Assembly (NCBI GenBank): GCA_949358305.1
Contig: OX442317.1
Location: 3,540,186-3,600,185, forward strand
Source: Strigamia acuminata
Taxonomy: Eukaryota; Arthropoda; Chilopoda; Geophilomorpha; Linotaeniidae
Direction of reading: 5' to 3'
Length of the DNA stretch: 60,000 nt
The position numbers were made by a program, and so were the translations under genes. This document shows positions 27,550 to 55,669 of this stretch, piece by piece (positions within the stretch are counted from its first letter, which is position 1; the number at the start of each line of letters is the position of its first letter). The notes below the pieces were generated by a model. The model ran no database searches and had not been told where the DNA came from. It worked only from the letters and a program-made list of their open reading frames with translations.

Positions 27550-28022
27550 AATTTTTACTCCCTCGTTATTCACCACTTCTTATTCCAATCTTAAATTACT
27601 AAATATTGTGAGTAAATTAGTTGAATTAAACTTTTCTCTGTGACGTCAAGTTAGCGAAGCAAAACAATTATGCGTGATAGTTAGTATTTAATACTTTAGT
27701 TTATTTATTATAACTATTTATTGTAATGTTTGTGTAAAATGTGTTTTTGTACGTAATGTATGAGATGGGTTTATATTATTCACTAATCATTCACTAATTC
27801 ATTAGTTTAACTATTAGCAGGTTTTTTAAACATTTTTTCTACAAAATATATGTCGCTGAACTTCGTTTATATTCATGTAGTAGCAGAAATTCAATAGTTA
27901 CACGAATTAAAACAACTGTTCCAAATTCCAACTTTTTTCATTCAAATTTCGTGCAAATTGTAAGAAAGATTGCTATTGGTCAGATCTCACGGTTTCCTCG
28001 TGTACCGAAGGTCACTGCCATC
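27550..28022. other. 3' flank of copy 1 and 5' flank of copy 2
   Basis: This 470-bp spacer recurs after copy 2 (38057-38509) with high similarity, so it belongs to the duplicated unit. It must contain the copy 1 3' UTR and the copy 2 promoter. An ATTAAA lies near 27623; I see no canonical AATAAA or TATA box that I would defend. Confidence 0.6.
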
Positions 28023-31000
28023 ATGGGCTTCTTTTCAAATTCCCGAGTAGTAATTATACTCATGACCACTTTCTGTAAGGGTAAGTCGTACCATTTGCAT
28101 GTTCTAAATTGTTAAAATCACCAAACTAATCGGGCAACGACCTTCGACGAGCATCCGTGCAGAATGAACAACAGTGAGTGGCTATGACAACCAACAAAAG
28201 ATAAAATAATTCCACATGGCTCCACATTCTGCTGAAATCACGAACCACAAACTACAATTCTCCCTATATACCTCAAATTCCCAAAGCGTCCAAAAAACTG
28301 TAGGATATATTGAATTTTGCAGTTAATGTATCCCTACTTGCATCGTGCTGTTACGAAGTTAAATTTCCGGCGTCTAGTTCTCGTCACTAGATGGCACCAC
28401 TGTCTCTACGATGGCGAATACACAAAAGCAGCGGAAAATTCAAATAAAACTAAAAACTTAAATTTCTATTTAAGGTTTTGCTAAAACTTCGAAACCTCTT
28501 GCATTCAACGATGAACCTCCTTTCCGCGTGGAATTCTCAAACAGTACCGGAATCAAAATACCATGCACCGCAAACGGCTCTCCTGCGATTAACATCACTT
28601 GGATTCAAGCTGACGGAATTCCCGTACCAAAAATGAACCAACTGAGACACGTTACGGATGAAGGAACCTTGGTTTTCCCATCATTCGAGGCTAAAAGTTA
28701 CCGACAAGACATGCACGCAGTTACATACAAATGCACTGCAACAAATGCAGCGGGGACGATCATCAGCAGAGAAGTTCACGTGCAAGCAGGTTGAACACGA
28801 AAGATGAGTTAGTCGTTTATAAAATGCTTACAGTTTTGCCATTTCAGTGATGGACCAACTATTTGAACCCCATGTCTATGATGCTTTTGCCACTAAAGGA
28901 AGTACTGCAGCCATCAAATGCGTAATATCGGGAACAGTCACTAAATACGTGATCGTTGATACTTGGATTAAAGACAACCAGGAAGAAATTAAAACCTCTT
29001 TCTTTGATGGTACGTTATCTTTCTGAATGGTCTTTTAACATGCATGTTTGCCACTTTATATATACTTAATTACTTTCCAGATAAAAAATATGCTATCACA
29101 AAAACTAGTGACCTATTGATATCGAACGTGGACAGTTCAGATGCCGGCAGAACTTATCGATGTATCGCTAAACACCGGCTCACTGGAGAAATTAAAACCA
29201 GTTCAACAGCTGGAAAACTCTTTGTCACTGGTAAGAACGTTAATACAGTAATAGAAGTCACTTAATTAAATTTATGAATTCCCTATTTCAGAATTGCAAG
29301 GCAATGTTCCATCAAAGATTCTGGAAATTGAACAAACTGTGTCTGCCGTTTTGGGATCTCGAGCTGCCTTGCCCTGTGTGAGCCAAGGACATCCAACCCC
29401 TACCATCAAGTGATATATATTTGTGTCTAAAGAGTAAACATAACAAATAGCTTGAAATTCTTCCTTCTAATGTAGATGGTTCAAGAAAAGCAATACGGGA
29501 ACTGTTCTACCTATCGACTTCGACAACCGTGTGAAGACGACTGTATTGGCTCTCATCATATCAAACATTCAAGAGAGTGACTCTGGATTGTATGTGTGCG
29601 TTGCTGAAAATCATATAGGAACATCAAGAATGGAATTAACATTAAACGTGAAAAGTTAGTCTAGATAACAAAATGAAGATTTCATTTTCCAATAACCTAA
29701 TTCTGACTTCGCTTATTTAGAAACCACAGAAATTACATTGATTCCTTCGCACATCAAGTTGGAACCGAACGACAATCAGAATTTAATTTGTGATATACAA
29801 GTTACATCAGAATTCACCGTTTCATGGTATAGAAATGGTGATTTAATACCAGAGAAGAATGGAGTAGAGCAATTGCATCCAGAACTAAGCGGCGTCTATC
29901 AGTGCTTTGCTAAATCTGAAGATGATATGATCCATGCTTCGGCTGAAGTTACTTCTGGCGGTAAGCGTAATACAGGTTGTTTCAGAATTCATGTTAGACA
30001 GAAACAGGGGGTATAGAAGGGGACCAGGAGATCACGTTTCCACTAATCAAAATTTCCAAAAATATTTCTTACTTAATGCCATGTTCACAGCCCCAAAAAC
30101 AATGGAAGATTTCAAATATCGCGTGTCACGCATATCGCTACCAGCTGTGCATTGATGCACATGGTGGACATGTAGAGCATCTCTTGTAATAAACTTCTGC
30201 TGTTGCTACCGATTGTGTGTTTTTATTGAAAGCATCCATTGTTTTTGGGGCTGTGACTAAGTGGGAATTTTTTTTTGGAATTTTTGATTAGTGGAAGCGT
30301 GATTTCCTGGTCCCCCACTATACCCTGTTTCTGTGTAACATGAATTCTGAAACACCCTGTATAATGAAAGTGGAGAATGAAAGTGGAAAATTGATATCCA
30401 ATATTGAATTTAGCAAATAAACCTTACATAATCCGAGGATTTGAGGAAAAAATTTTGAATTCCGGAGATAGCATTAATCTCGAATGCACAGCTGCTGGGA
30501 ATCCCACTCCAAAAATTAAGTGGTACTTGGAAGAAGAAATTATGTCCAAATCAAATTCCATTTACATTAATGAAAAGATGGAAAGTAGTGATGTTGTAAT
30601 TAGTGAGTTGACACTGAACAAAGTGTCGGTATCCAGCGGTGGAGTATACACGTGCGTAGCAAGTAATAATTTAGGAAGTAGCAGCTACAATGCAAGAGTG
30701 AATGTTTATGGTAAAAAAAACTCATTTAATTATAGCTTTAGTTATTGCTTTGACAACCAAGTTTTTATAAATATTTACTTATTTCGTTCAGGAAAGTTAG
30801 GTGTACGACAAGTGCCACAAAGAACAGTTGTAGCTGGACATAATTTAATTTTAAATTGTCCATTTTATGGTTATCCAAAAAGCAATATTGAATGGGAAAA
30901 AGGTATATGGTGTTTAAAATAATCAAGTTAATTCACAACTTAATAACCAAATCTTCATTTAGATTCAAAAGTAGTACCTGCAATGTTTCACCAAAGTGTG

Positions 31001-34000
31001 TTTCCTAATGATACACTAATTGTAAGCAATGTTAAAAAAGGCCAGGATGACGGCAAGTATTCCTGCAAAGTGTCCAACATTCAGGGTGAAGCAGTAACAG
31101 GAAACGTAGAAGTGGTGGTAATGAGTGAGTATAACTATTCTAGTACATGTTTTGAGCATATTCTTTTTACATATTAAATAAATACACTTATTAATTGCTA
31201 CAAAATGAAATTCCATCCTGTGCTATTGTATGAAGTACGAAAGAAATAATTTAGTTGCAAAATTCAATCAGAAAAAAAACCAAACAGAACACCACTTGGA
31301 CTTTCATTCACTAGACCCCAGTCAGAAAGTCGCTTAAACTTGTTTAAAATTTAACACTACATTTGAACTACTTTAAAAAAAGTAAAACCAGTTAAAATGA
31401 CTTTATAAATTCGCCTACTAACTTTTTCAGTTGCACCAAAAATTATGCCATTTTCATTCCAAGAAGACTTATTGCGTGAAGGCATGAGAGCTAGACTTCA
31501 ATGTGTCGTGAGTGAAGGAGACTCACCAATTACGATTCAATGGCTTAAAGACAATGCTGTAATTCCAAATGAATTAGACATTAAAATTCAACAGATCGAT
31601 GAATTTTCAAGCATCCTTAATATAGGACAAGTAACTCCCAAACATAATGGCAACTATACTTGCAAAGCTAAAAATGCGGCCATAACCGTGGAACATTCAG
31701 CCGTTTTAAATGTCAATGGTAATGCTTTTCTTATCTCGTCTTTTGCCTTGCAGTTCCTCCAAAGATTATTCCCTTTGCCTTTGTGGATGATCAATTCTAC
31801 AAAGGAATGCGTGCCCATATCACATGTGCTGTGAGCCAAGGAGATCCGCCGTTGACCTTTCAATGGTTCAAAGACGATCGCCCGATCCCTGCTTCGTTGC
31901 AAGATGTGGCAACGCGTCAATATGACCAGTACACGAGTTCTCTAAGTATTGAGAGCGTGTCTTCCGGCCACACGGGAAATTACACCTGTGTTGTATCAAA
32001 TCGGGCGGTGACAGTCAGCCACACGGCGCAACTTCTGGTTCACGGTAAATAATCCATTCATTGATTTAATCCATTCGGGGGTTTCTTTTCCAGTTGCGCC
32101 CAGGATCATTCCCTTCTCGTTCCAAGACAAATCTGTGGTGGATGGCAGACAAGCGAGGGTTATGTGTGGGCTAATTGAGGGAGATGCTCCTGTCACTTTT
32201 ACTTGGTTGAAAGATGGACTGCCAATAAAGCAAAAAGATGTAGAAATTAAACGTGCTGACGATAACTACTCCGTTCTTTCCATCCACAGTGTGACTCGTG
32301 GCCACACTGGAAACTACACTTGTGTGGCTACTAACCGCGCTACCAGTTCACAATTCAGTGCCACATTGATAGTTAATGGTAATTGCTAATGAAACTGTTT
32401 CAATTGATTTCAGCCGCCCCAAAAATCATTCCATTCTCCTTCCAAGACGGTCAATTATTTGAAGGAGTTTTTGCGAGGGTTTCGTGCGTAGTTTATCAGG
32501 GAGATCTTCCAATTGCCATAAAATGGCTGAAAGATAACAAACCATTATCCAACATTGAGGGTGTTAATGTCCGACAAGTTGATCAATTTTCCAGCATGCT
32601 AACCATAGAGAAAGTGCAACAAATTCACAGTGGCAACTACACTTGCACAGCGACAAACTCTGCAGCCTCCGCCAGTTCGACGGCAATCCTTGTTGTCAAT
32701 GGTACGACAATCAAGTGATTTTGTTTATTTGTTCATTTTGCAGTCCCTCCAAAAATTGTACCATTCGCATTCCAAGATGGGCATTTACTCGAGGGCATGT
32801 TAGTTCGAGTGTCTTGTGTTGTCAGCCGAGGAGACTTACCATTGAATATAACCTGGCTCAAAGACAATACATTTGCTTCCCAACAACCTTCTGTTAGCGT
32901 GCATAACTTAGACGATTACTCCAGTGTCCTGTCAATTGACCCAGTGACTAAGAAACATGATGGCAATTACAAATGTGTTGCTAAAAACATGGCTGGAACT
33001 GACACTTTCGTTGCATCAATAATTGTTAATGGTAAATTATTGTTCCAGCAGTTAAAAAAGTTATGTTGCAATGTTATTTTCCAAAATCAACATTTAATTC
33101 ATCTAACTAAACGTTTAGTTGGATATGTCAATAAATATTAACTGAATCTTTTTCAAATCAAGACTAAAATCTAAATAGTATACCTAATGATTAGATATTA
33201 TTCTACAACTGTTACTTCAAGTTTTTGCATTTTGAACCTTGACAAGTTGTACGGATAAAAGATTTAGTAGGACATAATATAACTTTGTTGGAGCTTCATG
33301 ACTACTTTTTTATAAAGTGCTTTTACTTTTTCCAAAATTAGGTCCTAACATCTTTTTTTTTCTAAACTTATTTATTCAGAATTACCAAAATGGGTTGTTA
33401 GACCCAATAACACTAAAATACCAATTAGAAGTTCAACTACCATTCCTTGCATAACCACAGGATTTCCTAAACCAACAACCACTTGGTACAAAGTAGAAGG
33501 TTGTTCGAACTAATCCACAAACACAAAAACATGCACAATAATACATTCTGTTATTAAAATTATAGGTTCTAATACTCGAGGAACAAAAAATGTTGTGCAA
33601 AATGGGAATGGCTACAAACTGTTGTCAAATGGTTCACTTCATATCGAAAATGTCAACATGCAGCACGCTGGATATTACTTCTGCGTGTCAAACAATACAA
33701 TCGGAAGCATTAGTGAAATGGCTCTACTATCCATCAGTTGTAAGTGACAAAATTACTCAACCAAATAAAATCATAATAAAATAAAATGTACTTTTCAGCA
33801 GTTCCCCCTCAACTACACAAAAAAATTCAAAATGACACCGTTAAAAATGGCGATTCAGTGCATTTTAAATGCATTGCTCACGGAGATAAACCCATGACAT
33901 TTACTTGGTACATCAATGGTCAACTGAAGAATGTGAGTAATGGAAATAACGGGTAAGTTCACACAAGATCCATACAGTAAAAATCAATCAATCACTCATC

Positions 34001-38509: not shown

Positions 38510-39986
38510 ATGGGCTTCTTTTCAAATTCCAGAGTATTAATTATACTCATGACCACTTTTTGTAAGGGTAAGTCGTACCATTTGCATGTTCTAAATCGTT
38601 CAAACCCCCAAACTAATCGGGCACAGACCTTCGACGAGCATCCGTGTAGAATGAACAACAGTGAGTGGCTATGACAACCAACAAAAGATAAAATAATTCC
38701 ACATGGTTCCACATTCTGCTGAAATGACGAACCACACACTACAATTCTCCCTAGATACCTCAAATTCCCAAAACGTACAAAATACTGTAGGATATATTGA
38801 ATTTTGCAGTTAAAATATCCCTACTTGCATCGTGCTGTTACGAAGCTAAATTTCCGGCGGCTAGTTCTCGTCACTAGATGGCACTACTGTCTCTATAATG
38901 GCGAATACACAAAAGCAGCGGAAAATTCAAAAAGACCTAAAAACTTAAATTTCTATTTAAGGTTTTGCTGACACTTCGGAACCTCTTGCATTTAACGATG
39001 AACCACCTTTCCGCGTGGAATTCTCAAAATACCATGCACCGCAAACGGCTCTCCTCCGATTAACATCACTTGGATTCTTGCTGAAGGAAATCCCGTACCA
39101 AAAATGAACCAACTCAGACACATTACGGATGAAGGAACCTTGGTTTTCCCATCCTTTGAAGCTAAAAGTTACCGACAAGACATGCACGCAGTTACCTACA
39201 AATGCACTGCAACAAATGCAGCGGGGACGATCATCAGCAGAGAAGTTCACGTGCAAGCAGGTTGAACACGAAAGATGAGGTAGTCGTTGATAAAATGCAA
39301 CAGTTTTGCCATTTCAGTCATGGACCAACTATTTGAACCCCATGTCTATGATGCATTTGCCACTAAAGGAAGTACGGCGGCCATCAAATGCGTAATATCG
39401 GGAACAGTCACTAAATACGTGAACGTTGATACGTGGATTAAAGACAACCAGAAAGAAATTAAAACTTCCTTTTTTGATGGTACGTTATTTTTCTGAATGC
39501 CTTTTTTACATGTATACTTGCCACTTTATTTATACGGTTTAATTACTTTCAAGATAAAAAATATGCTATCACAAAAACTGGTGACCTATTGATATCGAAC
39601 GTGGACAGTTCAGATGCCGGCAGAACTTATCGATGTATCGCTAAACACCGGCTCACTGGAGAAATTAAAACCAGTTCAACAGCTGGAAAACTCTTTGTTA
39701 CTGGTAACAACGTGCGGCGATCCGGGTTTTTACTTATTAAATTATGTAAATTCAATAAGCAATCGTCGTAGAGATGCCGTACAGGACTTCTACTCTGTGG
39801 CCAAATGTTTGTCTAGGGGAATGATTTTACACAGAGTAAAGGAAAAATTAGATAGTTTTAATCGTTCAAAATACAAAGGAGGTATTATTTAAAATGTTTG
39901 GGGTCGATCTGGCTTCTTCTTCAAATGTACACTCACAGTTGACCGTTGGCTCCAAGATGGCGTCGATGGCGTCGTGTGAGCGCGGG

Positions 39987-40272
39987 ATTTTAGCGGAGTA
40001 AACTCGACGCTAAAATACTTTGCTAAAATATACTAAAAATCCTCGCGGAGCAAGCTCAACACGAGAATACGTCTTGCACACAGCGGTTTGATTATTACGG
40101 AGCAAGCTCGACGTAACAATCCGCCTTAACACAATTCGCTTTGTGGAGTTAAACTCAACACAAAGCCTTCAAACTAACAGAGTAAACTCGATGTTAGTTT
40201 CACACAGATTTCTTTGTGGAGCAAGCTCGACACAAAGAACTACAAATTGACAGAGCAAGCTCAATGTCAATT
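39987..40272 (-). repeat. Array of seven hairpins with constant loop and covarying stems (3' LTR copy)
   Basis: Hairpins: 39987-40016, 40039-40068, 40090-40121, 40138-40166, 40171-40200, 40210-40239 and 40245-40272. On the sense (minus) strand each has an 8-10 bp outer stem, then UC or UU, then GAG(C/U)-loop-(G/A)CUC. The core reads UCGAGCUUGCUC, UUGAGCUUGCUC, UCGAGUUUACUC or UUGAGUUUAACUC. Outer arms differ in every hairpin (for example AATTGACA, TTCTTTGTG, AAACTAACA, GCTTTGTG) yet each pairs with its own partner. Five are perfect. The other two deviate only by G.U pairs, which exist on the sense strand and not on the other. The inner closing pair also switches C-G to U-A together. Confidence 0.9.
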
Positions 40273-40688
40273 CACACACAGAAATGGCTTAAATTACGTG
40301 TAGTAATTCAAGCTAGAAAGTTGCTATTCCGTACAGTGGGTACAGACCAGCGATGAAACTCAATTCGTCCAAGAATCACAGATCACACTTTGCAGTTTTG
40401 GCAGAAGTTTGACACGGTTGTGAACAGTTTGGAGGTGGAATCAAGAGTGCGGGAAGAGTGGGCCAAAACCGTTTGGCTCACTTCTAAATCTGCTCAGAAA
40501 AGCTGCGCAGATGACGAGTTGCACAAAGATCACACACGGCCGCCTTCGGGTCGTGTGCAACAATTGAGCCGGGCACGCGCGAGGGGAAGGGATGCTCCGC
40601 CCAGGCACACGCCTAGCAGCATCATCAAAGCAATGCACACTGCAGCGCGATTGGTTGACGCTGTTGCTGGGCCAAAACTTGCTGCAAA

Positions 40689-40774
40689 ACACAATATTAT
40701 TTGGGTAATATTGTGTCTTGTTTTATATTTTATTAATGTATGTTTTATTTCAATTTACATTGAAACAAAACATA
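40689..40774 (-). repeat. Two further large hairpins in the element B LTR
   Basis: 40689-40716 has perfect 11-bp arms (ACACAATATTA) around a 6-nt loop. 40739-40774 has 16-bp arms (TATGTTTTATTTCAAT on plus) around a 4-nt loop with a single mismatch that is a U.G pair on the sense strand. They fall next to the likely transcription start and polyadenylation signals. The second LTR carries them at 52482-52567. Confidence 0.8.
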
Positions 40775-40851
40775 TAAGCTTGTTGAATATGTTTATAAGA
40801 CAATTTGGAAATATGGTGCGCACTCAAATAGGAATATTTGAGGTCACCACA

Positions 40852-40862
40852 CTTCCCCCCCC
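40852..40862 (-). other. Polypurine tract of element B
   Basis: The sense sequence GGGGGGGGAAG directly abuts the 3' LTR. Confidence 0.88.
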
Positions 40863-41024
40863 TTTAAGAAAGAATCTTATTCTTTTCCAAAAAGAGACAA
40901 GTAAGTATAGGAATAAATACACAAGGTTTCAAAGTAAAATGGAACAGGATATATATTTATTCTTTTTTATTACAGTGTAAAAATAAAAAAGGAATTATTT
41001 TTAATGAACGGGCGTGTTCCCTAA

Positions 41025-43244
41025 TTATTTAGGCAGCATGTCCGTTGAATGATCGTTGGGATCTTTGTGCTCTGTGACGGTGCACAAAGGTCGGCCGGCG
41101 TTTGGTCCTGACCGGAAGCCAGGGTTGATGTGGAGCCACACTTGCTTTATGCGGTCCACACCATCCCTTCGTCCAAAACCCATCTCGAAATACTCCTGCG
41201 GGTCTTGAGGCGTAATTCGAGCGAACACCAGGCGTTGATGTAGGATCCACGGCTGCTGTTCCTTGATGTGGTTTTCCAGCCACGCGAGGACTCGGTTGCA
41301 TAAATCCTCGCTGTTCTGGAGAATCATTTTCGTCGCGCTCGTTATGTAGCAAAAAGCGTATAATGAGCGCAAACGTTGATAGGCGGTGAGGTGGGTGGCC
41401 ATACTCGATCCCCTATCTCTTGGCGGCGAATCCTTTGGAGGAGGCGGCGGTGGCGGCGACTTCTTGCAGATCGAGAGGGATCTGGATCTGCGCAAAGCCG
41501 GGGTGCGCGTCTTTGGTCTGGCACCGCAGGCCACAGGCACGACGAACTCGCGATCGTCGCTGTCGAGCCACTCCATCGGAGACGAGATGTTGCAACTCGG
41601 TGCCTCGGTTGCACGGGAAACACTCGACGTTGCCGTGATGGCAGCGTGGAGTGGAGCTGCGGATGACGGTGGTGCGCCAGCGGGACGGGCGGTAGCTCGT
41701 TCCGCCGCGCGCCGCTGCTTCAGCGCAGCCCATTCCTGCCGTAGTCGAATGGCGGATCCAGCCGGAGTTTCGCCAGTCGCCTCGGCTTGTTGTGTCAATT
41801 CGGCGAGCATCGTTGGAGGATCGGGGCGAACTGACTCCCAATCGTCCAGCAAGGCTCGTGGAAGCCCTAACGGCACGGTCCACAATCGAGTGGCGGCCGC
41901 CAGAGCAATCTGTGGGTCGGGAAAGACTCCTTGGAACAGGATTCGAAGAAGTCCCTCCGACAATTTCCTGTTCATCTTCTGCAGCGTCCGTTGCAGTTGC
42001 TTGTCGGACTTGCACGACGCAAGCTCTCGGGCAAGCCATTGCCATTCCTTCTCACCTTCGCGGATCTGAGCGAGTTGGTATTCGTCCAGATGCGCGAGGT
42101 ACATCGCTTGGGCTGTCTCGGGAAACGATGAGAATCGCCTCCAGAGATCAGCGCACTCTTGTGCGGGAAATGGTTCTTGAGAGATGTATCCCTCAAAACG
42201 GATGACCGATGTCACTTGTGGCACGGGCACCGATGGATCTGGTCGCATGTCGCTGGTGACTGGACGGCAAGCGAACGGCAAAGAGGTGTTGACGTCTCCT
42301 TGACCGGCTTGCAATGCGGCGATGCGTCGATCTTCTTTTGCTATCTCGTCCGACCAGTCAATCCGGCCGGAGGAGGAAGCGCTAAGCTGTGAAGCGTTGG
42401 ACTTTTCTTCACGCGACGAGAGTGAACTCCTCGTGGAAGATTGGCGCGATTGTACTCGAGGTCGGCTTCGGGATGTGGGTCTCGACACGGACTTCGAATG
42501 TCTTTTTGGCGGCGTCGACTCGCGTCGGTGATGTGAGCGATGACGAGCCTTCTGGAGTGGAGGCAACCCTCCAATGTCGCCTTCCCCCGACGACTGTGTT
42601 GGGGAGGAGCGACGGCCACTGTAGGGCGACCTCGAAGAACGTGACCTCGACGTGGAGCGCGGTGGCACCACGTGGATGGTGGAAGCGACCTGTACCCGGG
42701 GCTCAGGCTCTGGATACGGGTTTGGCACGAAACCAGCATGGAAACATCCGCCCATGGCTAGTTGATGCATTTCCGACTGGCATGTCGGCACCCAACGTTT
42801 CTTTCCGTCTGTAGTCACACGGAAGGATTCGTGGTAGAGGCGCACAACCTCGGCTTTGGTTTGGTCCAAGCGTTGGAAAATGTCCTCCAAAATCTGTCGA
42901 CGCTCCCACGCAGGAGCGTTGAAGTAGCGGCGATGGTCTCGCGTTTCTTGAGCGATCACTGTGAAGGCAAAGTCAAGCAACACGTTTCGCAGTGGTCCGA
43001 AGGTATCGCGCTTCATGGCCCACTCGAGGGCGTCGCGATGACCGAATCCATCGATTAAATAGGCGATCCGAAACTTCGTTCCCCATCGCTTGTTGATGGC
43101 TTTGGAGAACTTGTGTCGGGCCGCCCAAAACGTCAGTCTTCCTTTAGACTTTATGATTTCTGGCGGCAATGCATGTCGCCAGACACCAGGAGCTGTCGGA
43201 ACATCGGGATGCAGTTCGAGATGCGTCTCCCGAAGTTGGATGAT
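41025..43244 (-). CDS. Element B third ORF, about 740 codons, unknown function
   Basis: Open from 43244, directly after a good splice acceptor (TATTTTACAG), down to the stop at 41025. There is no ATG near its start; the first usual Met is well inside, which suggests expression by splicing. It shares three blocks with the third ORF of element A: EMHxLxMxGxFxHA; RILFQGVF with DPPTM and a GExPAGSAIRLRQEW segment; and WLExxI, LHQRL, PQExxEMGFG and NPGxxSGPN near the C-terminus. Between them lies an Arg/Ser-rich region. No signal peptide or membrane helix, so not an envelope. I do not recognise the family. Confidence 0.8.
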   Translation of the reverse strand: MIQLRETHLELHPDVPTAPGVWRHALPPEIIKSKGRLTFWAARHKFSKAINKRWGTKFRIAYLIDGFGHRDALEWAMKRDTFGPLRNVLLDFAFTVIAQETRDHRRYFNAPAWERRQILEDIFQRLDQTKAEVVRLYHESFRVTTDGKKRWVPTCQSEMHQLAMGGCFHAGFVPNPYPEPEPRVQVASTIHVVPPRSTSRSRSSRSPYSGRRSSPTQSSGEGDIGGLPPLQKARHRSHHRRESTPPKRHSKSVSRPTSRSRPRVQSRQSSTRSSLSSREEKSNASQLSASSSGRIDWSDEIAKEDRRIAALQAGQGDVNTSLPFACRPVTSDMRPDPSVPVPQVTSVIRFEGYISQEPFPAQECADLWRRFSSFPETAQAMYLAHLDEYQLAQIREGEKEWQWLARELASCKSDKQLQRTLQKMNRKLSEGLLRILFQGVFPDPQIALAAATRLWTVPLGLPRALLDDWESVRPDPPTMLAELTQQAEATGETPAGSAIRLRQEWAALKQRRAAERATARPAGAPPSSAAPLHAAITATSSVSRATEAPSCNISSPMEWLDSDDREFVVPVACGARPKTRTPALRRSRSLSICKKSPPPPPPPKDSPPRDRGSSMATHLTAYQRLRSLYAFCYITSATKMILQNSEDLCNRVLAWLENHIKEQQPWILHQRLVFARITPQDPQEYFEMGFGRRDGVDRIKQVWLHINPGFRSGPNAGRPLCTVTEHKDPNDHSTDMLPK

Positions 43245-43577
43245 CTGTAAAATATTCGAAGAAATAATTAAAATCCATTTTTTCGTGTAAGATAATTATT
43301 TCCGAGTTTTCAGTGAATAAAATCACGGGCGAGATTTCATTCGACGGTTTAGATTCGTTAAATTTTTCAAAATATTTGAAAAATCGTGAAAAACGTTGTT
43401 TCCGACGGCTATGTTTCAATGTTGGAGCGTTACCGTAGCAACGCCTCAAAAACGAGACACAGCGCCATCTGATGATAAAAATGGCGGCGCCTTCTTGCGA
43501 AGGCGTTACCAACGAACTTTTCGCTTTTTCCGAGTGAAAATGCACTTTTAATTACTTTTCATGACTGAAAGGTAATT

Positions 43578-43859
43578 TTATTTTAATTTATTTACCCGGT
43601 CGTGTCTCTGTGCACGAGTTTCGCCGTTTGGGTCGGCGAATAGGCCTCCTCGAAGTTGTGGTCGGGGCGGCGTGACTGGCAAACGGGCAGCAGCGTCAGC
43701 CAGAGCGGCTTGAGCTTCGGCGGACGCTTCGGCGGACTCTTTGGTGACATCCACGGATGTGTTCGAAGTATTTGCGGAACCAAGCAGCGTCGAATTTGTT
43801 TCTAATTCGAGGCTGTTGGCGCCGGCTTCGCTTCCTTCTTTCGGTTCCTCTCCTTCCAT
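43578..43859 (-). CDS. Element B small acidic ORF, 93 aa, possible first exon of the third ORF
   Basis: ATG at 43859, first residues MEGEEPKEG, matching in position and character the small ORF of element A. It is Glu/Ala/Ser-rich. Near its end, after CGG at 43596, GTAAAT could serve as a splice donor in phase 0; the acceptor before 43244 is also phase 0. Splicing the 351-nt intron (43595-43245) would fuse this ORF to the third ORF in frame and supply the missing start codon. This is inference from the junctions only. Confidence 0.5.
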   Translation of the reverse strand: MEGEEPKEGSEAGANSLELETNSTLLGSANTSNTSVDVTKESAEASAEAQAALADAAARLPVTPPRPQLRGGLFADPNGETRAQRHDRVNKLK

Positions 43860-44063
43860 TTGAACGACTAATCCAAATGGAAAAGAAAAAACGAAAATTA
43901 ATTTATTAGTTTTTCCTTGGAAAATTCCAAAGAAAAAGCTACTTACAATTGAAGATTCGGGAGAATTAATCCAGTTGTTTCGCTTTTGGTTTGGGATGCA
44001 CTTAACACACGTGTGAGATCGAAGTGAACTCAGACGCGAAGTGATCAGTTCAAATACCGGAAG

Positions 44064-47000
44064 TTACGTTTGGGTAACGTCGCGGTTAGTGACGTCATCC
44101 AATCTTACTGTTTGATTGGTTTGAGTATGGCTTGAGGAATTGCTCCTTACGTCATACGGCTGATCCCTGGATCTCGAGGTTATCGAGGGGAGAAGACACA
44201 TGTTGTTTTTTCCTCTCGGTTTACGAGTCCGAAGATTATATCTCTTTGTCGGCGAGGGATTTATTGTATTTAAATCGCCGTCTTCATTGTCATCGGAGAC
44301 TGAGTCAGATGAGTCTTTTATTTCAGATGTTTTTTGTTTCTTTTCTAAAAACACCTTTTTATTTAATTTTTTAGCAATTTCAAGCTTTTTGAAACTGTTA
44401 CGAAGTTCAACGTCGTTATTCACGAGGTCTGACTCCATTTGTGGTTTGGATGAATTATCGACAGGTATTTTCTTTAATTCATCGTCATCTAACGTATTAA
44501 TTATATTTTCAGTCTTTTGACCGACTTCTTCGCCTTCTAACCATATTTCCTGATCGAAACTCGGGAAATACGGAGTTAATTCCGACGAATGGACAGCTGG
44601 AAATATTTCGTTATTTTCTAGCTTTCTCAATTCTACCGATCCTCCCTGTAATACTTTGGTTATTACATAAGGTCCTGTTCTTTTATCAGCGATGCCAGCT
44701 GCAATGCCGCGGGCAGCGCTCGACAAAACATGAGAATCTCTCCAAACTAAATCGTTTAATTTAAAATTGGAGAACTTCTCACCTTCTTTTTTAAGATTAA
44801 CTCGTCTACGCAAATCTAACACATGTGACATCATGTGCTGATATGTTTCGGCGATAACGGCTTCTAATTTTTGCACGTATAAATGTGGGTTTTTTGGATC
44901 TACGACCAAAATTCCTTCAGGTATTCTTGGATCCCAAGGTACTCTGAGTTCGCGAAAAAAGTTAAGAAATGCGGGAGAGAAGTCTCTTCCTCTCGTCACC
45001 GTAGTTCTCAAACTAAATGCAAATTCACGCAAATATTCGTCCCATTTGGAATGAACAGATGAATAAATTGCAACCAAATATTTGATGTCACGGTTAACCC
45101 TTTCAACCGGGTTAGCTTGTGGGTGATACGTTGAAGTTGGTGTTGGAACCATCTTGAACTTTTCACAAAATTTTTTAAAGACTTGGGCACGAAATTGCGG
45201 GCCGTTATCAGAAATAATTTTTCGAGGGAATCCCATGCTCATGGAAAGGTGATAAATGCAATTTGCCACTTTTCCTGCAGTAGGGTTACACATTGGATAT
45301 AATTCTGGCCAATGAGTTGCTACGTCAAGTATGACTAAAATGTGTGTGTTGTTTTTTCGAGTCCGAGGTTTTGGGCCAGTCAAATCAACACTTAGGCAGT
45401 CAAATGGGCTGTAAGGACCCATTTGCGCTGCTTCAATTTGTCCTTTCGTTCGAGGTTTGCAAGCTTGACAGCGCTCGCAGTGTCGAATGAATCTCGTAAT
45501 GTCCGATTTCATGCCTTTCCAGGTATAAATTCGGCGTGCTCGATAAAGAGTCCTTGCAATTCCTGGGTGGCCCGAAAGTGGGTGGCCATGCATTAGCCAA
45601 ATAATTTTATACTTCAATGTCTGAGGTACAAAAACTTTGAGTGCTCTCCCATCCTCCCCCAATTCATCAGACATTGTGGGATGAAATTGCATTAATAAGT
45701 CATCTTCAATTAAGAAGGTGGTTGCGTATTTTCTATATTGTTTCCTCTGTAGTCGCGTTGTGACGTCTGGCGGAAATTGATTACAATTTAAAAAATTACG
45801 CACCAATTGGCAAACTTTATCTTCTTTCTGTGCCTTAATTATGTCTTCCCTTGTGGGAGGTTCACAATCAAGACGTTCTACAATTTTGGCGACAAATGCT
45901 TTTATTAAAACATTTGACGAAGGAACTTGGAATTTCCTTGAAATTTGCGCTCTCATGACGTCATCTGATTCCTCAGAGGGGTCATAGATTTTAGTCCAAT
46001 AGTTGACGAATTCATGATCTTCCTTTTCCTCCAGTGTGGAGACAGGAAGTTCATAAAATTTTCCCATTTTCCAATTTCGTTGAGGTGATGGACAGTAAGA
46101 TAATAATTCATCATTATCTCCATCATCTTCAGGATTTTCCGGTTTGTCAATCGGTGATCTGGATAAAGCATCCGCTAAAACATTTAGTGGACCTTTAATA
46201 TATTGTATTTCGAAAGAGTAGCGCATCAGCTCCATTTGCCAACGCGCTAACCTTCCGGCAGGTTCGTCTAACTGCATCAACCATTTTAGTGCTTGATGGT
46301 CAGTCCTAACTATGAATGTGGTAAATTCCAAATAATGTCGGAATTTACGTAATGCCCAGATTACCGCAAGGCATTCTAATTCTGTGGCGCTGTAATTTAT
46401 CTCAGCAGGTTGCAAACTTCTGCTGGCATAAACACAAGGCACTTCGATATTTTGATCATCGATTTCCCTCATTTGCATAAGCGCGGCGCCTAGTCCTTTC
46501 CTGCTAGCGTCGGTATGCACAATAAATGGTTCTGTCAAATCAGGCATGGCCATTGTTTCTGCATTCGTTAAAGCATCTTTTATTTGATCAAAAGCTTCTT
46601 GATGAATTTCTGACCAAATAAATTCCACATCCTTTTTGAGTAAAGGACGTAGAGGTTCTGTCATGACTGCAAGATTCTTGAGTAATCAGTGAAAAAAGTT
46701 CACCATTCCCAAAAATCTTTGCAACTCTTTCAAATTTGAAGGAGCTGGCATTTCTTTAATGGCGGCGACTTTTTTAGGGTCGACACTAACTCCTTGAACA
46801 CTTAACTTGTAACCAAGGAAAGTTAATTCTTTTCTGCCAAATTTCGATTTTTCTGGATGAACATGAAGATTTGCATTTTCAAGTTTACTCAGAATTTCTT
46901 CTAGATGACTCATGTGTTCTTCAAAATTTTTTGATATAATAATTATATCATCGAGGTATGCCCATGCGAATTTTCGATAGGCATCCCCCAAAATTTTTTC

Positions 47001-48545
47001 TATCAACTTTTGAAAAGTTGACGGCGCATTTACGAGGCCAAAGGGCATGACTCGAAATTGTAGTCGACCCAAAGGGCTCCAAAACGCAGTTTTAGCACGG
47101 TCGTTTGGATGAACCTCTATCTGCCAATAGCCTTTTGACAAATCTATTGTTGTGACCCATTCAAACTTTCCGAGTTCTCGCAAGATTTCCTCAATGCTCG
47201 GCATTTGAGGAGGATCGTATAATGTATGTGCATTGAGTGGTCTAAAATCAATGCAGAGTCTCGGATCACAATCCGGACGCATCACTAGAACTATTCGCAT
47301 CCCATAGTCTCCAGTGGCTTGTTCAACGTACCCATTATCCAACATATCTTGACAGATTTGACGGATAATTTCACGTTTCTGTGGATTTACGCTTTTAAAC
47401 GGAACTCTAATTGGAACTTTAGTGTCCAGTTTAATTTCATGCCTAACGAGGTGTGTTCTACCTGGTCGGCGTGATAAAATCTTTTCATGTTTCTTTAATA
47501 CTTTTTCAAGCATTAAATTATTTTCCATTGACAAATTAGCGTCGCTAACAAGTCTTTGTACTATATTTTCTTCATCGGCAACTTTAGCTTGACATGCAGT
47601 GGCGGAACCAGCTTTCATGTGATTTACTTTAATAAAGTCGCTTTTCATGATTTCTTCGGGTGGATCAAGGAACTCTTGATAACGATCAAGAATCGCTTGA
47701 GGAACAAAAGGTAAATCTTCTTTCAAAGACTTGACAAAATTCCAAGACATGGTCTTAGGATTTGGTTGAATATTGAGTCGATTCATGAAATCACATCCTA
47801 ATAAAATAATAGGATATTTATTTCTTAAAATTATGAATGGATGACTTAACATCCCGTGTGTCCACGCAAAAGAAAGTAGGAGAGTTCCTTCAGGGACTAC
47901 ATCTTCGGAAGCAGTCGTAACTCTCACATCCGGTCCTATTGGTCGAATTTCATCTTCCAGTTTCAGCGAAATTACTACGGAGTAGGCCATGAAGCTTCGA
48001 TTAGCTCCAGAGTCTAACATCCCTGTTATCATACCGTTTGCCGTCTGCAATCGAATCGTCGGCAAATCATTGCTGTTTGGTATGTCCGCGTACTTGCATT
48101 TAAAACGTCGCGGTGGCTTAATTTCTATCGGCGGATCCAATGGTAATTCGTCCAATAAATCATTAGTGACTAGCGTTGTAGCCATTAATTTTTCAATGCA
48201 TTCGTCAAGACCAGGTAAATCAATTTTATCTGATCTATCAGTAATTTCAGGTGTTGGCCTAGTTTTTTCATCAAGTAAAGTAACAGCATCTTTTATTTTA
48301 GATTCCCAATCAACTTTTATTTGTTGAACTTTTTCTTTAAAAAATTCTTCTGTGATGTTTTCATTTTGCAGCACAAGCTTTAAACTGGAAACATCAATTT
48401 TTGGAAATATTAAATTATTTTCTAATTCTAATTTAATCTGTGTATTTAAAAATTCATCTAAAATTTGAGATGGTGTTAGTTCATTTTCCGAGGCGGTAGG
48501 CGTCGCATCCACTAGACCGTCTGGATGCGCGCTTACAAGTTTTTT
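44064..48545 (-). pseudogene. pol: Element B Pol, interrupted by one in-frame stop
   Basis: The same domain order as element A: protease with MLDSGANRS; reverse transcriptase with YLDD (about 46950); RNase H with HTDASRKG; integrase with HGHPLSGHPG, CERCQAC, DLTGPK and SDNGPQF. A TGA at 46688-46686 splits the frame just after the FLGMVNFFH segment at the end of the reverse transcriptase region. The frame resumes at once on the other side with no shift. The rest, down to 44064, is open. A single nonsense change is the whole visible damage. Confidence 0.9.
48504..48545 (-). promoter_or_regulatory. -1 ribosomal frameshift signal, gag-pol junction of element B
   Basis: The heptamer A AAA AAC (48545-48539) is followed by TTG TAA, the gag stop. 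After 9 nt comes a perfect 8-bp stem, CGCATCCA with TGGATGCG (48529-48522 and 48511-48504), around a 10-nt loop. Pol is in the -1 frame. The heptamer and its place next to the stop are the same as in element A, but the stem-loop sequence differs, so structure rather than sequence is kept. Confidence 0.9.
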
Positions 48546-51413
48546 AGAAGTTCGCCGATTGATTTCATCGATTTCTCGAACTCTTCTATAATCTTGTCTT
48601 TGCTTGATTTCCTATCAGGACATTCTTTAGCCCAATGTCCCAATTTTTTACAAATATTACACGGGTCAGTAGCAGGTGATTTCGCGACTTTTGGCGAAGG
48701 CGAACTCGAACGTTTGGCTTCATCCTTTTTAGGGGTCGGTGACTTCGATCTACTGAGCGCGTCTGTTTTTGGTGAACCAAAAGTAACGTTTTTAGGCGCC
48801 ATTTTTGGTCCAAATTTTCGAGCTACTGCGTTATTACAGGCTAATAAAGCAGCTGCAGCCTCGCTTTCTGGTTCCGAGTCAGATTTCTCCGGTTCAGAAG
48901 CAGTTTCCATTTCGGTCACTTCAGCTAAGTGAGCTTTAGGGGTTGGATGTGGGTTTTTCCCATCCGATCCCTTTTTAGATTCCTTAGCAGTTTCTGCCAA
49001 AAAATCTCCTCGTTTTGGGGGTTGCAAAAGAGGGGTATTAGCAAAACGTGTGTCTTTTGCCAATTCCTTTCTCCTTTGCTGTCGCTTAGCATACGCAACT
49101 TTTTCATCAGCTGGTAAGTAAGCTTTGTAATTTTCGTCAATCCTTATCTGATTGGCTCGCATAAATTTGGCTAATTCAGCGAAACCACCCGGATAAGGTG
49201 CTCGTACTGAAAGTAGAACATTCTTCGAATAATCTGTCAATCCACGTCGGAATTGACGATCAATGGCTGCGTCTCCCATCGTATAAGGGAGAGTGACCAA
49301 TAAATCCTCAGTCCTTCTTAAATAAGAGCGAAGACTTTCGCCTTTATTTTGAGAAAGATTATCCCACATTTGTAGTAAGTCTTCACTTGACTCTCCATAC
49401 TCAGTCATGAATTCTTCTACAAAGTGGTTCCAATTTTGAAATTGTTTAGAATAAAACCATTTCTCAGCTCGGTCTATAAGAGCTTTTGGTACTACTCTTT
49501 TCAAAGCAGTGTGACATGCAATGCCATTCAACCTTGAAATTCGTAAAACTTCATCTAAAAGAGTGGATCCAGCTTCCCATTCTCCATCGAATAAAGCGGG
49601 TTTGATGTGATCCCATCTAATAGTTCTTTCATCAACTAGATCGTGAGTCCAGTTGTTGGCAGTATATTGTGCAATTTTTTGTCGTAATGCAATGTCAGCA
49701 TTATCGGCAGTAGCGTCAGATCGATCGGAAGATCGACGATCAGCTAATAATCGATCAATTTCTTCAGCAGTGTAATAATGTGTATTACGCCGTGAAGAGT
49801 GGCCTCGATGTCGACGTCGATGAGATCGATGTCGATTATCGCGTTCTTGTTGTGCATTCGCATCAGAATCCGACCTTGAATCAGATTGTGTTGAAATGTG
49901 GTGTTTCAGGTGGGTCGGGTGGGTCGCCGTCATCGTCTGGCGGTCGACGTCCACCTCCAGGTGGTCCATCTCCATGTCCGTCTGGATTTCCTCCATCTGG
50001 CGGATTTCTCCTATACTGACCCCCACCTGGCGGGCTTTCATGTCCGTCCGGCGGTTCGCGTGCTGGATTGGTGTCTCGTCGACTTCTTTTCGACGAATCT
50101 TGCTGCTGAGCCAGTGGTATCGTTCGGGCAACGTGAATACCTGTTTCATGTCGTCTGTTTCGATCGTCTACCATTCCCAACAGTCGGTCACTATTGTGAA
50201 AAATAGGGTTTCGATTACCAGGGAGCGGATTGCGATCAGCTCTCCGTTCCTCAGAATCTGAAGGACGTTTTCTTTTTGAGCGATGGCGACGACGCGAACG
50301 TTGGTCGTTATCACTTGATAATCCAGATTGGCTACTTAACTCTGAAACAACAGAAATTGTTATTGTTTCGGGAGTCAAAATAGGAACAGTTGGCGCAGCC
50401 ATTTCTGGTTGCACCAATTGGTCAGTATAATTTCTTGCTTGCAAACGATCTTTCATTTCTGCAAGCTCTTCTTGAGCGCGCAACAAATCAGCTCGGAGAA
50501 TTTCATTCTCATTTATTTGATTTTGCGATTCTTCTGGTTGTAATCGCTTAGCAGGGCCGCTAGACTCGACTTGTCCGCTCGTACTGGGTTGATCCAGCGA
50601 GTGGAAAATCTCGTCTTCACGCTTAGCTATTTTGCTTTCGCGAGTACGCTGTGTTTTAGCACGTGTGTCTAATTCAGCAGCATATCTCACTAGTTGATTA
50701 TGATTGCGTTGGTAGTGATCTGCCAAATCAATCAACTCTTTATTTTTCTGCTCCAGCTTACTTTTGGTAAGCTCGAGCTGTCTTCGCGCCTCTTGGTGTG
50801 AGCGAATTGAAAGTTCATTTCTAACATTCATTTTAGAAAGATCTTCCACTTCACCTTTTAATCTGTATTCTCTAGCTTTTTGGGCTAGAAATTCCTCATT
50901 TTGTCGATTGAGTTCCATGTGTTGAAGCTCAACCTCCGCTTTTTGTTGTTGAAGCTCTGCTTCTTTTCATTCCATTTCAAATTGTAAATTTGAAACGGCA
51001 CGATCAGTGTGAAGTCGTATCATGGCGCGATGAATCTCTTCCACCGTCATGTCGTCCGTTATTTGGGCGCCATCCTGGCGTGCTTGATTTCTCAAAGCAT
51101 CCAGCATGGTCATGCGAGGAGGTGATTCGTGAGACGATTCACTTTCCATTTCACGTAACGTATTTTCCACTTCCTCCAGTGGAAGTGGCGGGAGTTCTTG
51201 TTCGTTAGAACTCGCACTTGATGCGCTCAGGGCTCGAGCAACTTCATTTTCAGCTTCCTTAAGTTGTTTCGGATCTGGAACTGGTGTTATTTCTTCAGAA
51301 ATAATTTTTTCCATAAGCATTTCAGGCTCGAGAGCCGGCAAAACCGTCGCTGCTCGTTTCTGAGTGCTTGGTCGACCTCGCTGTCGTTTTACAATTTGCA
51401 TTGGCGTCGCCAT
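48533..51413 (-). pseudogene. gag: Element B Gag, broken by a stop and a frameshift
   Basis: Starts at ATG 51413 with a basic segment containing an RGRP (AT-hook-like) core. A TGA at 50969-50967 interrupts the coiled-coil region in frame. The frame continues to 49881, where it ends; the capsid part and the CNICKKLGHWAKEC zinc knuckle lie in another frame, open from about 50149 to the stop at 48533. So there is at least one stop and one frameshift compared with the continuous 867-residue Gag of element A. The order of parts is otherwise the same. Confidence 0.88.
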
Positions 51414-51485
51414 TTTGTCAAATTGAAAAAGAACAATGGAAATAAAGGATTTTTTCGCAAAAATCGGATTTTAACAATCAAAACT

Positions 51486-51503
51486 ATCCCGGACGGGCCC
51501 CCA
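51486..51503 (-). other. Primer binding site of element B (tRNA-Pro like)
   Basis: The sense sequence TGGGGGCCCGTCCGGGAT, 2 nt from the 5' LTR, is identical to element A. Confidence 0.85.
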
Positions 51504-51505
51504 AG

Positions 51506-52644
51506 TGCGGCGATCCGGGTTTTTACTTATTAAATTATGTAAATTCAATAAGCAATCGTCGTAGAGATGCCGTACAGGACTTCTACTCTGTGGCCAAATG
51601 TTTGTCTAGGGGAATGATTTTACACAGAGTAAAGGAAAAATTAGATAGTTTTAATCGTTCAAAATACAAAGGAGGTATTATTTAAAATGTTTGGGGTCGA
51701 TCTGGCTTCTTCTTCAAATGTACACTCACAGTTGACCGTTGGCTCCAAGATGGCGTCGATGGCGTCGTGTGAGCGCGGGATTTTAGCGGAGTAAACTCGA
51801 CGCTAAAATACTTTGCTAAAATATACTAAAAATCCTCGCGGAGCAAGCTCAACACGAGAATACGTCTTGCACACAGCGGTTTGATTATTACGGAGCAAGC
51901 TCGACGTAACAATCCGCCTTAACACAATTCGCTTTGTGGAGTTAAACTCAACACAAAGCCTTCAAACTAACAGAGTAAACTCGATGTTAGTTTCACACAG
52001 ATTTCTTTGTGGAGCAAGCTCGACACAAAGAACTACAAATTGACAGAGCAAGCTCAATGTCAATTCACACACAGAAATGGCTTAAATTACGTGTAGTAAT
52101 TCAAGCTAGAAAGTTGCTATTCCGTACAGTGGGTACAGACCAGCGATGAAACTCAATTCGTCCAAGAATCACAGATCACACTTTGCAGTTTTGGCAGAAG
52201 TTTGACACGGTTGTGAACAGTTTGGAGGTGGAATCAAGAGTGCGGGAAGAGTGGGCCAAAACCGTTTGGCTCACTTCTAAATCTGCTCAGAAAAGCTGCG
52301 CAGATGACGAGTTGCACAAAGATCACACACGGCCGCCTTCGGGTCGTGTGCAACAATTGAGCCGGGCACGCGCGAGGGGAAGGGATGCTCCGCCCAGGCA
52401 CACGCCTAGCAGCATCATCAAAGCAATGCACGCTGCAGCGCGATTGGTTGACGCTGTTGCTGGGCCAAAACTTGCTGCAAAACACAATATTATTTGGGTA
52501 ATATTGTGTCTTGTTTTATATTTTATTAATGTATGTTTTATTTCAATTTACATTGAAACAAAACATATAAGCTTGTTGAATATGTTTATAAGACAATTTG
52601 GAAATATGGTGCGCACTCAAATAGGAATATTTGAGGTCACCACA
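51506..52644 (-). repeat. 5' LTR of element B
   Basis: 1139 bp, partner of 39713-40851 with one visible difference. As the 5' copy it would place the hairpin array in the leader of the element's RNA, between the start site and the primer site. Confidence 0.95.
51780..52065 (-). repeat. Array of seven hairpins with constant loop (5' LTR copy)
   Basis: The same seven hairpins as at 39987-40272, shifted by 11,793 bp, with no change that I can see. In the sense transcript this copy would lie upstream of the primer binding site and gag. Confidence 0.9.
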
Positions 52645-53099
52645 AACGTCAATAATAAAAATTACTTATTTAAATCCGTTCATCCCTAATTTCAGAATTG
52701 CAAGGCAATGTTCCATCAAAGATTCTGGAAATCGAACAAACTGTGTCTGCCGTTTTGGGGGCTCGAGCTGCCTTGCCCTGTGTGAGCCAGGGACATCCAT
52801 CTTTAACCATCAAGTGATAAATATCTGTGTTTAGAAAGTAAGCCTGACAAACATCGTGCAATTCTCCATTCCAGATGGTTCAAGAAAAGCAATAAAGGAA
52901 CAATTCTACCCATCAACTTTGACAACCGCGTAAAGACAACCGTGTTGGCGCTCATCATATCAAACATTCAAGAGAGTGAATCTGGATTGTACGTGTGCGT
53001 TGCTGAAAATCCTATAGGAACTTCAAGAATGGAATTAATATTAAACGTGCAAAGTAAGTGTGAATAACAAAATAAAGTTTCCAATACCTAATTATTTCA

Positions 53100-53495
53100 A
53101 CGGAAAAGCTATTTCCACTATATTTAATCATTTTTCAAAATGATACAGAAATCGGTGGAAATAGCCCATGAGCTATTTCCACCGATTTTTCAAAATGATT
53201 TCCTGTTAAGTTCTAAATCGAATGTCGGAGCGGCCGTAATGAAAGAAACAAACTCGGAACGATTTCTTAACCTAAAACTGCTTTTCTCTCTCGGTTGCCA
53301 ACAGCAACCCAAGAGAACAATAATGTGCTCTATTCTTATTAACAGCGTAATCATAAAATAACTTACAGGTACTTGTTGTACGAACACAACATTACAGAAA
53401 TCGGTGGAAATAGCCCATGAGCTATTTCCACCGACCTTTTCAAAATAATTTCTGTAATCATTTTGAAAAAATCGGTGGAAATATCCTCGGCCTTA
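53100..53495. repeat. Nested palindromic repeat in the Ig3-Ig4 intron of copy 3
   Basis: Inverted copies of gaaatcggtggaaatagc, as in copy 1 (5090-5335), here split by about 200 bp of unrelated sequence (about 53205-53390). It shares its outer ends with copy 1 but is rearranged. Copy 2 lacks it. Confidence 0.75.
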
Positions 53496-55080: not shown

Positions 55081-55668
55081 CAGGGTGGAACAAAAGTCTG
55101 TTCCCCTCAAATATTTCCTGAGCAATTGCATCTAGGCCAACTTTGATGAAGCGATCGTATAGGAAGTTGGGTGAGAGCAATCCAATGATGTCATCAAATT
55201 TGACCTTGAAGGCCATTTTCAAGGTTATTCACTTGCTAACTTCTAAACCAATCAGGTTAGAGCAAAAAAGTCAATTACAAAGTTGTAGAGCATCATCAAA
55301 TTAGTACTATCCAACTTATCTTAGTCATCTTAAGTTAAATGTTTTCCTTTTAAAAAGAAGACAAATCAGCTGAAATAAAGCCAGCCATTGTGACAAAACT
55401 TAAATTTCTATCACAAAAATACTGAATTACTTAAATAAACATATTCAAATGTGTATCATTATGCAAGTAAACAAGAACAACCACTGCCTTTTTTTAATGC
55501 CCTAATAATTATTTTATCACAAGAATAAAAAATTTCACTTTGCTGATTTTTTTCTGATTTGTCTCCTTTTGAAAAGGAAAACATTTAACTTAAGATGACT
55601 GAGATAAGTTGGATAGTACTAATTTGATGATGCTCTACAACTTTGTAATTGACTTTTTTGCTCTAACC
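55081..55668. mobile_element. Foldback / mariner-like repeat replacing the 3' end of copy 3
   Basis: It begins CAGGGTGGAACAAAAG right after TATA, like a Tc1/mariner-type end, exactly where copy 3 stops matching copies 1 and 2. Inside are 115-bp inverted arms (55255-55369 and 55554-55668) that pair closely. No matching right terminus is seen; the minisatellite starts at the end of the right arm. No coding frame. Confidence 0.65.
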
Positions 55669-55669
55669 C

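Follow-up and report, generated by a model that had tools for sequence, protein, structure and literature searches.

A tandem array of hairpins with a common bulged tip in the leader of a Ty3/gypsy-type retrotransposon of Strigamia acuminata, a candidate multivalent docking site

Structured retroelement leaders are known, and those of gammaretroviruses carry several GACG hairpins on different stems. The locus described here likewise has leader hairpins with a common short tip, comparable to the gammaretroviral GACG-tetraloop hairpins that serve packaging and dimerization (PMC516450, sections consulted). It differs from them in that the tip is GAG(YUUR)CUC with a 5' pyrimidine bulge, present in five or seven copies in the long terminal repeat (LTR) upstream of the primer binding site, and none of the loops found in its LTR family (family 1) is a GACG tetraloop. 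The constitutive transport element of Mason-Pfizer monkey virus also serves as a structured recognition element in the RNA of a retroelement, and it too repeats a module, its two internal loops, but according to the sections consulted of PMC7551171 it forms one long stem of 150 to 175 nt, whereas the hairpins here are separate, about 30 nt each, and lie in the 5' leader. Ty3 belongs to the same broad group as the present element, and its genomic RNA leader has a well-structured 5' end with cis-acting signals; the sections consulted of PMC11381356 contain no array of like hairpins, and state that the localization and packaging sequences of Ty3 are not precisely defined. The proposed kissing hairpins of the Ty1 leader (PMC5454406) are likewise a 5' leader structure for dimerization and packaging in an LTR element. 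Compared with Ty1, the present locus repeats a single tip many times, and its loops are too small to kiss in the ordinary way. In the open-licence literature searched, no report of such a hairpin array was found, and neither the tip nor its tandem arrangement is described there.

The array belongs to a Ty3/gypsy-type element that runs from LTR to LTR over positions 39713-52644 on the minus strand of the window, by which we mean the whole 60-kb stretch of DNA analyzed. The parts of the element are as follows.

39713..40851, minus strand: 3' LTR, 1139 nt, TG...CA
51506..52644, minus strand: 5' LTR, 99.8% identical to the 3' LTR
39709-39712 and 52645-52648: 4-bp target duplication AACG, flanking both ends of the element
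51486..51503, minus strand: primer binding site TGGGGGCCCGTCCGGGAT, 18 nt, 2 nt after the 5' LTR
51414..52412, minus strand: AUG-free sense stretch containing the array, 999 nt, LTR positions 233-1231
51411..51413, minus strand: first AUG 3' of the array, in AAAATGGC context, opening a 148-codon open reading frame (ORF)
48533..50167, minus strand: ORF with gag domain and zinc knuckle (Pfam)
44064..48611, minus strand: two pol ORFs, one with reverse transcriptase (RT), one with RNase H and integrase (Pfam)
41025..43295, minus strand: third ORF, 756 aa, without Pfam match

The element was classified by the order of its Pfam domains on the minus strand (gag, RT, RNase H, integrase), together with its near-identical LTRs, both starting with TG and ending with CA, the target duplication, and the primer binding site. 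The last of these we take to resemble the tRNA-Pro type of murine leukaemia virus, the primer tRNA itself being a candidate only. The LTR end and the bases past the primer site could pair (CCCGGA ... TCCGGG, sense; 51480-51512), so that the primer binding site would sit in a hairpin loop. Gag and pol are divided among several ORFs. The 148-codon ORF after the leader gave no Pfam match; its last part is similar to the start of the gag ORF of a sister element, collinear over 13 of 33 residues (E=2e-4), and the likeness falls at an equal distance from each AUG. For this reason the AUG at 51411..51413 is probably the gag start.

The window holds other repeats as well. A second, related Ty3/gypsy-type element lies on the same strand at 9202-22368, with LTRs that are 99.9% identical and a pol that is 55 to 62% identical. 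No sense AUG starts between its LTR positions 17 and 1272, and LTR 601-825 of its leader shows strong sense structure (z of -4.3 and -4.4, versus -2.8 and -2.0 antisense). Duplicated blocks with short exons occur at 39000-39712, with repeats at 3941-4630, 23439-29240, 30361-31182, and 53393-54659; read by eye, the exons resemble immunoglobulin-domain coding sequence, Dscam-like, and the element is inserted a few bases behind one of them. A perfect 12-bp tandem repeat (55667-56274) is followed by a tandem array of ∼323-bp units from 56274 to 60000, the end of the window.

Seven hairpins, H1 to H7 in sense order, lie inside the 3' LTR at 39987-40273 (LTR positions 579-865) on the minus strand, which is the element's sense strand.

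40244..40273, minus strand: H1, stem GAATTGACA / TGTCAATTT, core TTGAGCTTGCTC
40210..40239, minus strand: H2, stem TTCTTTGTG / CACAAAGAA, core TCGAGCTTGCTC
40171..40200, minus strand: H3, stem AAACTAACA / TGTTAGTTT, core TCGAGTTTACTC
40138..40166, minus strand: H4, stem GCTTTGTG / CACAAAGC, core TTGAGTTTAACTC, 5-nt loop
40090..40121, minus strand: H5, stem GATTGTTACG / CGTAATAATC with one G.U, core TCGAGCTTGCTC
40039..40068, minus strand: H6, stem ATTCTCGTG / CGCGAGGAT with two G.U, core TTGAGCTTGCTC
39987..40016, minus strand: H7, stem ATTTTAGCG / CGCTAAAAT, core TCGAGTTTACTC
51780..52066, minus strand: second set of these seven hairpins, in the 5' LTR of the element
40287..40313, minus strand: extra hairpin just upstream of the array (sense), GCTTGAATTAC / GTAATTTAAGC with one G.U, without the core, its loop varying between copies

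Each unit consists of an outer stem of 8 to 10 bp, an unpaired U(C/U) bulge on the 5' side, GAG, a loop, and CUC. The CUC stacks directly on the 3' arm, and the tip reads GAG[CUUG/UUUA]CUC. H4 combines a longer loop (GAG UUUAA CUC) with just 8 outer pairs, and the stem of H1 can be extended to 12 bp with three G.U. In the window copy, departures from Watson-Crick pairing within the nine outer pairs are confined to the outermost pair of H1, a single pair of H5, and two of H6, and each is a G.U when read on the minus strand. Four hairpins close the loop with C-G and three with U-A, so that this pair covaries. The first-pass annotation of this DNA had reported seven inverted repeats with this core, outer stems of 8 to 10 bp, imperfect stems that deviate by G.U on the sense strand, and a coordinated inner closing pair, all of which we recovered. 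The tip, presented there as constant, is not fully so, since the loops of family 1 are CUUG, UUUA, UUUAA, CGUG, UUCA, UCUA, and UCUAA; in those of the variant CGUG, UUCA, and UCUA loops that were seen, the C-G or U-A closing pair was kept.

The check proposed with that annotation, a covariance model of the seven hairpins, matched 14 sites in the 60-kb window, seven in each LTR, of which the seven used for building match by construction; up to E=10 nothing in the window matched beyond these array hairpins, and related copies show the compensated and G.U changes detailed below. When 306 nt of sense strand are folded in silico, all seven hairpins appear, but a 291-nt cut is predicted to join parts of H2 to H6 instead. 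CUUG forms a known tight tetraloop, its own C and G pairing inside the loop, and this suits the sense strand. A search of Rfam 15 over 39700-40900 returned 8 matches at E=10 or lower, none of which reached its gathering score (the highest at 22 bits versus 50), and among viral contigs searched with a piece of the RT three stretches matched a pattern and none was a relative.

Among the seven hairpins, 98.9% of the 91 pair cells pair, and sliding the partners by 1 to 3 columns reduces this to 40 to 49%, a comparison biased toward this structure, which was derived from the seven sequences themselves. Nine of the 13 pairs change on both sides, a number reached by 14 of 500 shuffles, and the 26 two-sided cells (shuffle mean, 8.6) were reached by none. 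No shuffle of 500 reached the covariation score, and 34 reached the number of pair types. In an alignment of H4 to H7 from 49 loci (24 distinct rows), 99.7% of 1,224 cells pair, the cells being 1,151 Watson-Crick, 69 G.U, 2 A.C, and 2 other. Two pairs change on both sides there, both in H7, from A-U to G-C in 4 rows and from G-C to A-U in 2 rows, which gives six two-sided cells against a shuffle mean of 0.8. No shuffle among 500 reached these six cells, the percentage paired, or the covariation score. The remaining two of the five covariation measures are weak, since 46 of 500 shuffles reached the number of two-sided pairs (2) and all 500 reached the pair types.

The nine outer pairs were also tallied over 299 hairpins from 50 family-1 loci, with five-base loops and altered cores taken in, giving 2,436 Watson-Crick, 204 G.U, 0 A.C, and 51 other cells. 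The ninth position of H4, outside its 8-bp stem, accounts for 48 of this last class. By hand count, 14 distinct stem positions in this set carry G.U. The ratio of G.U to A.C positions is 14:2 if one counts both A.C cells found outside the nine outer pairs (the tenth pair of H5 and the core of H6), for which the one-sided binomial probability would be about 0.002 under an independence that copies of one family do not fully have. In the control, the LTR outside the array, G.U-type and A.C-type changes are balanced (93:86), and over the entire array including linkers they stand at only 32:22. Selection thus seems to keep the fold, through changes that are compensated or, read on the sense strand, of the G.U type. 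Matched arms might instead be kept without any RNA function, by template switching in reverse transcription or repair, with one arm serving as the template for the other. Quasi-palindromes are known to mutate by template switching, which yields two-sided changes, and the array has grown by duplication. It predicts fully matched arms, however, and not the excess of G.U over A.C seen in the array and missing outside it, and it leaves the near-constant tip, the bulge, and the recurrence in a second LTR family unexplained; we consider it very improbable.

A DNA search scored at least 40 candidate loci, the window's two LTRs included, and all 40 were compared. With strict cores, 25 have seven hairpins, one has six, 13 have five, and one has four; when one core change and a five-base loop are allowed, 26 have seven and 14 have five. 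Arrays of five and of seven hairpins therefore coexist in the genome, and the elements with either size are young, to judge from their LTR pairs, 14 of 15 being 99.7 to 100% identical. The other pair, at 94.3%, owes its low value to an untrimmed row (L017), whose 70 mismatches are confined to alignment columns 1 to 138, and was kept among the 15. It had been argued that the stems are unrelated, so that simple tandem duplication could not explain them. That argument goes too far: H1 (AATTGACA/TGTCAATT) and H3 (AACTAACA/TGTTAGTT) differ by two compensated pairs, H2 and H4 have CTTTGTG/CACAAAG in common, and H1-H2 align with H3-H4 as a duplication, so that the two blocks look like the products of a tandem event. 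The seven-hairpin form in turn looks like a fusion of the two five-hairpin forms, because five-hairpin arrays start with either an H1-type or an H3-type hairpin. A simple tandem repeat was rejected, as the stems differ yet stay paired and duplication alone leaves paired differences unexplained. Duplication followed by compensated divergence is a better history than unrelated stems.

The 999-nt stretch that contains the array has no sense AUG, versus 15.1 expected from dinucleotide shuffles (0 of 1000 shuffles reach zero), and its antisense strand has 15. Because the array lies within this AUG-free sense stretch, which ends at the AUG of the first ORF (LTR-based position 1232), it is, on this pattern, part of the RNA leader and would be carried in transcripts. 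Among 49 aligned copies, AUG is frequent at LTR positions 79, 92, 227, 230, 328, and 448, and after 448 it occurs only at 875 and 974, in one copy each; 22 AUGs at position 1139 lie past the reference end in untrimmed rows. This distribution suggests a transcript start after LTR 448, with which TATAAA at LTR 55 and 125 and AATAAA at LTR 103 and 118 disagree. Short pieces of the second LTR family show a similar strand difference, 8 of 10 being without a sense AUG and two having one and two, versus 5 to 9 antisense. The simplest reading is that ribosomes scan the long leaders of these elements and that what is conserved in such leaders is structure. Internal ribosome entry was set back, the AUG-free leader up to the first ORF suggesting scanning.

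Folding energy does not choose the strand, since both strands beat all 200 dinucleotide shuffles (z of -4.0 sense and -5.3 antisense). Windows of 150 nt from LTR 526, 601, 676, and 751 likewise do not separate the strands over the array, with z of -2.5, -2.9, -2.9, and -0.1 sense and -3.0, -3.3, -2.5, and -1.0 antisense. Hairpins possible on both strands, with a core and an arrangement that are repeated, could also belong to a DNA-level element, namely, palindromes in tandem that a transcription factor or insulator protein would bind. The arms differ by unit, so only the core could be such a site, the compensated changes and G.U bias would not be expected of duplex DNA, and the array lies in an AUG-free stretch ending at the first ORF. 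We regard this as the least probable of the explanations considered, a shade below template switching.

The 12-letter core pattern has 1,156 matches in the genome, versus 494 for a reversed control; about 100 of the 1,156 were listed and fewer inspected. Twenty loci were hand-picked among the matches listed, and 14 of them have such hairpins, comprising 10 family-1 LTRs (nine five-hairpin arrays and one of two hairpins), three loci of a separate LTR family (family 2), and one of a third group. Thirty core-pattern loci were fetched automatically, and the 20 with family-1 hairpins represent six distinct arrays, five of them already among the nine five-hairpin arrays and one being the two-hairpin locus. 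In family 2 the leader runs up to a primer-site sequence similar to the family-1 one, and the copies come in pairs some 7 to 13 kb apart. The Gag encoded between one such LTR pair is only 26.9% identical over 223 aa to that of the window's element.

The family-2 hairpins resemble those of family 1 in the bulge and the GAG/CUC tip, not in the loop or the lower part. On different outer stems, P2 and P4 of this family have a common 22-nt inner block, CACCTGCGAGCTTTACTCCGGA, which folds as CUG, a bulged C, GAG, CUUUA, CUC, and CGG. The last stem, P4, occurs in two forms, TATCTGTAAAC/GTTTACAGATA and TATTCGTAAGC/GCTTACGAATA, that differ by three compensated pairs (13 rows). Loci L125 and L133 carry the three altered pairs fully matched, and L090 carries two of the three. 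Distinct states in the 13 rows, a damaged copy included, are 43 Watson-Crick, 12 G.U, 3 A.C, and 2 other. A recurring C.A mismatch in one stem of family 2 and the third group (GAGTCCCG with CGAGACTC or CGGAACTC) counts against pairing. The third hairpin position of family 2 (L125-L133) reads GTGAGTCYCG...CGAGACTCAT or GTGAGAGCGCCA...TGGTACTCTCAT in different copies, as if whole hairpins had been exchanged. The third group (L093 with L105-L124; 21 loci) consists mostly of diverged copies with damaged stems and matches the family-2 leader; it was used for core recurrence only and left out of the pair counts. The model scores of 22.3 and 28 bits in family 2 and the third group are biased upward, the loci having been found via the core, and the outer stems are the independent part.

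The compensated changes, the G.U bias, the AUG-free sense strand, and the recurrence in family 2 agree with the first-pass view of a sense-strand RNA element in the LTR whose pairing is kept. Changeable stems bearing a near-fixed tip five to seven times over are the pattern expected of a multivalent docking site. We propose that each unit would be a presentation stem, free to change in sequence, for a near-constant tip made of the 5' pyrimidine bulge and GAG-(YUUR)-CUC, and that the five or seven copies would together dock one protein. The most likely ligand would be the element's own Gag, which would bind the array to recognize and collect genomic RNA, perhaps switching it from translation to packaging. 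We infer the protein binding at the tip, its identity as Gag, and the packaging job, and hold the whole tentatively, at somewhat less than an even chance. Gag and packaging are the first choice because of the leader position, the absence of such hairpins elsewhere in the window, and the likeness to the retroviral GACG hairpins. Judged by sequence alone, the array has the structure and the location, in the 5' leader ahead of gag, that a packaging signal should have, and the gag domain with its zinc knuckle also counts for Gag. Against this reading, the array precedes the primer binding site, whereas the packaging hairpins best known from retroviruses follow it, and the covariance model found no hairpin with the GAG/CUC core in the second element of the window.

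The same RNA element could have as its ligand a host RNA-binding protein controlling transcript export, stability, or translation, comparable to NXF1 at the constitutive transport element. The tips are alike in two families of one host despite their 26.9% Gag identity, which a common host protein fits at least as well as Gag does, and in a leader that looks ribosome-scanned, control of translation or export would be natural. On the other side, 13 of the 14 picked loci with hairpins are family-1 LTRs or family-2 loci and the last belongs to the third group, six had none, and no host gene with such hairpins was seen among the matches inspected, of the roughly 100 listed. We rate a host ligand as somewhat unlikely. 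An RNA-RNA contact is a further explanation, in which the tips would open into intermolecular duplexes for genome dimerization; kissing hairpins have been proposed for the dimerization of Ty1 (PMC5454406). The core is nearly self-complementary, two GAGCUUGCUC copies being able to pair throughout but for two U.U positions, and the covarying closing pair (C-G or U-A) would be required by such a duplex too. Those two central positions would stay unpaired, however, the 5' bulge would be left unexplained, and the loops here are 2 to 4 nt, a size that makes poor kissing loops; dimerization is thus improbable.

More broadly, the array may represent an undescribed modular RNA recognition system of Ty3/gypsy-type elements, in which a bulged GAG/CUC tip is carried in tandem on freely evolving stems, kept across families whose Gag proteins are 27% identical, and read multivalently by one common protein; we regard this as possible, if on the doubtful side. 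Little is known of the cis-acting RNA signals of Ty3/gypsy elements, and the array is a compact, repeated candidate marked by evolution. Its tip, bulge, and stems are separately testable, in elements with nearly identical LTR pairs. The array also shows, within one genome, how an RNA structure can grow, with duplication of hairpin pairs and compensated divergence of the stems while the tip is kept.
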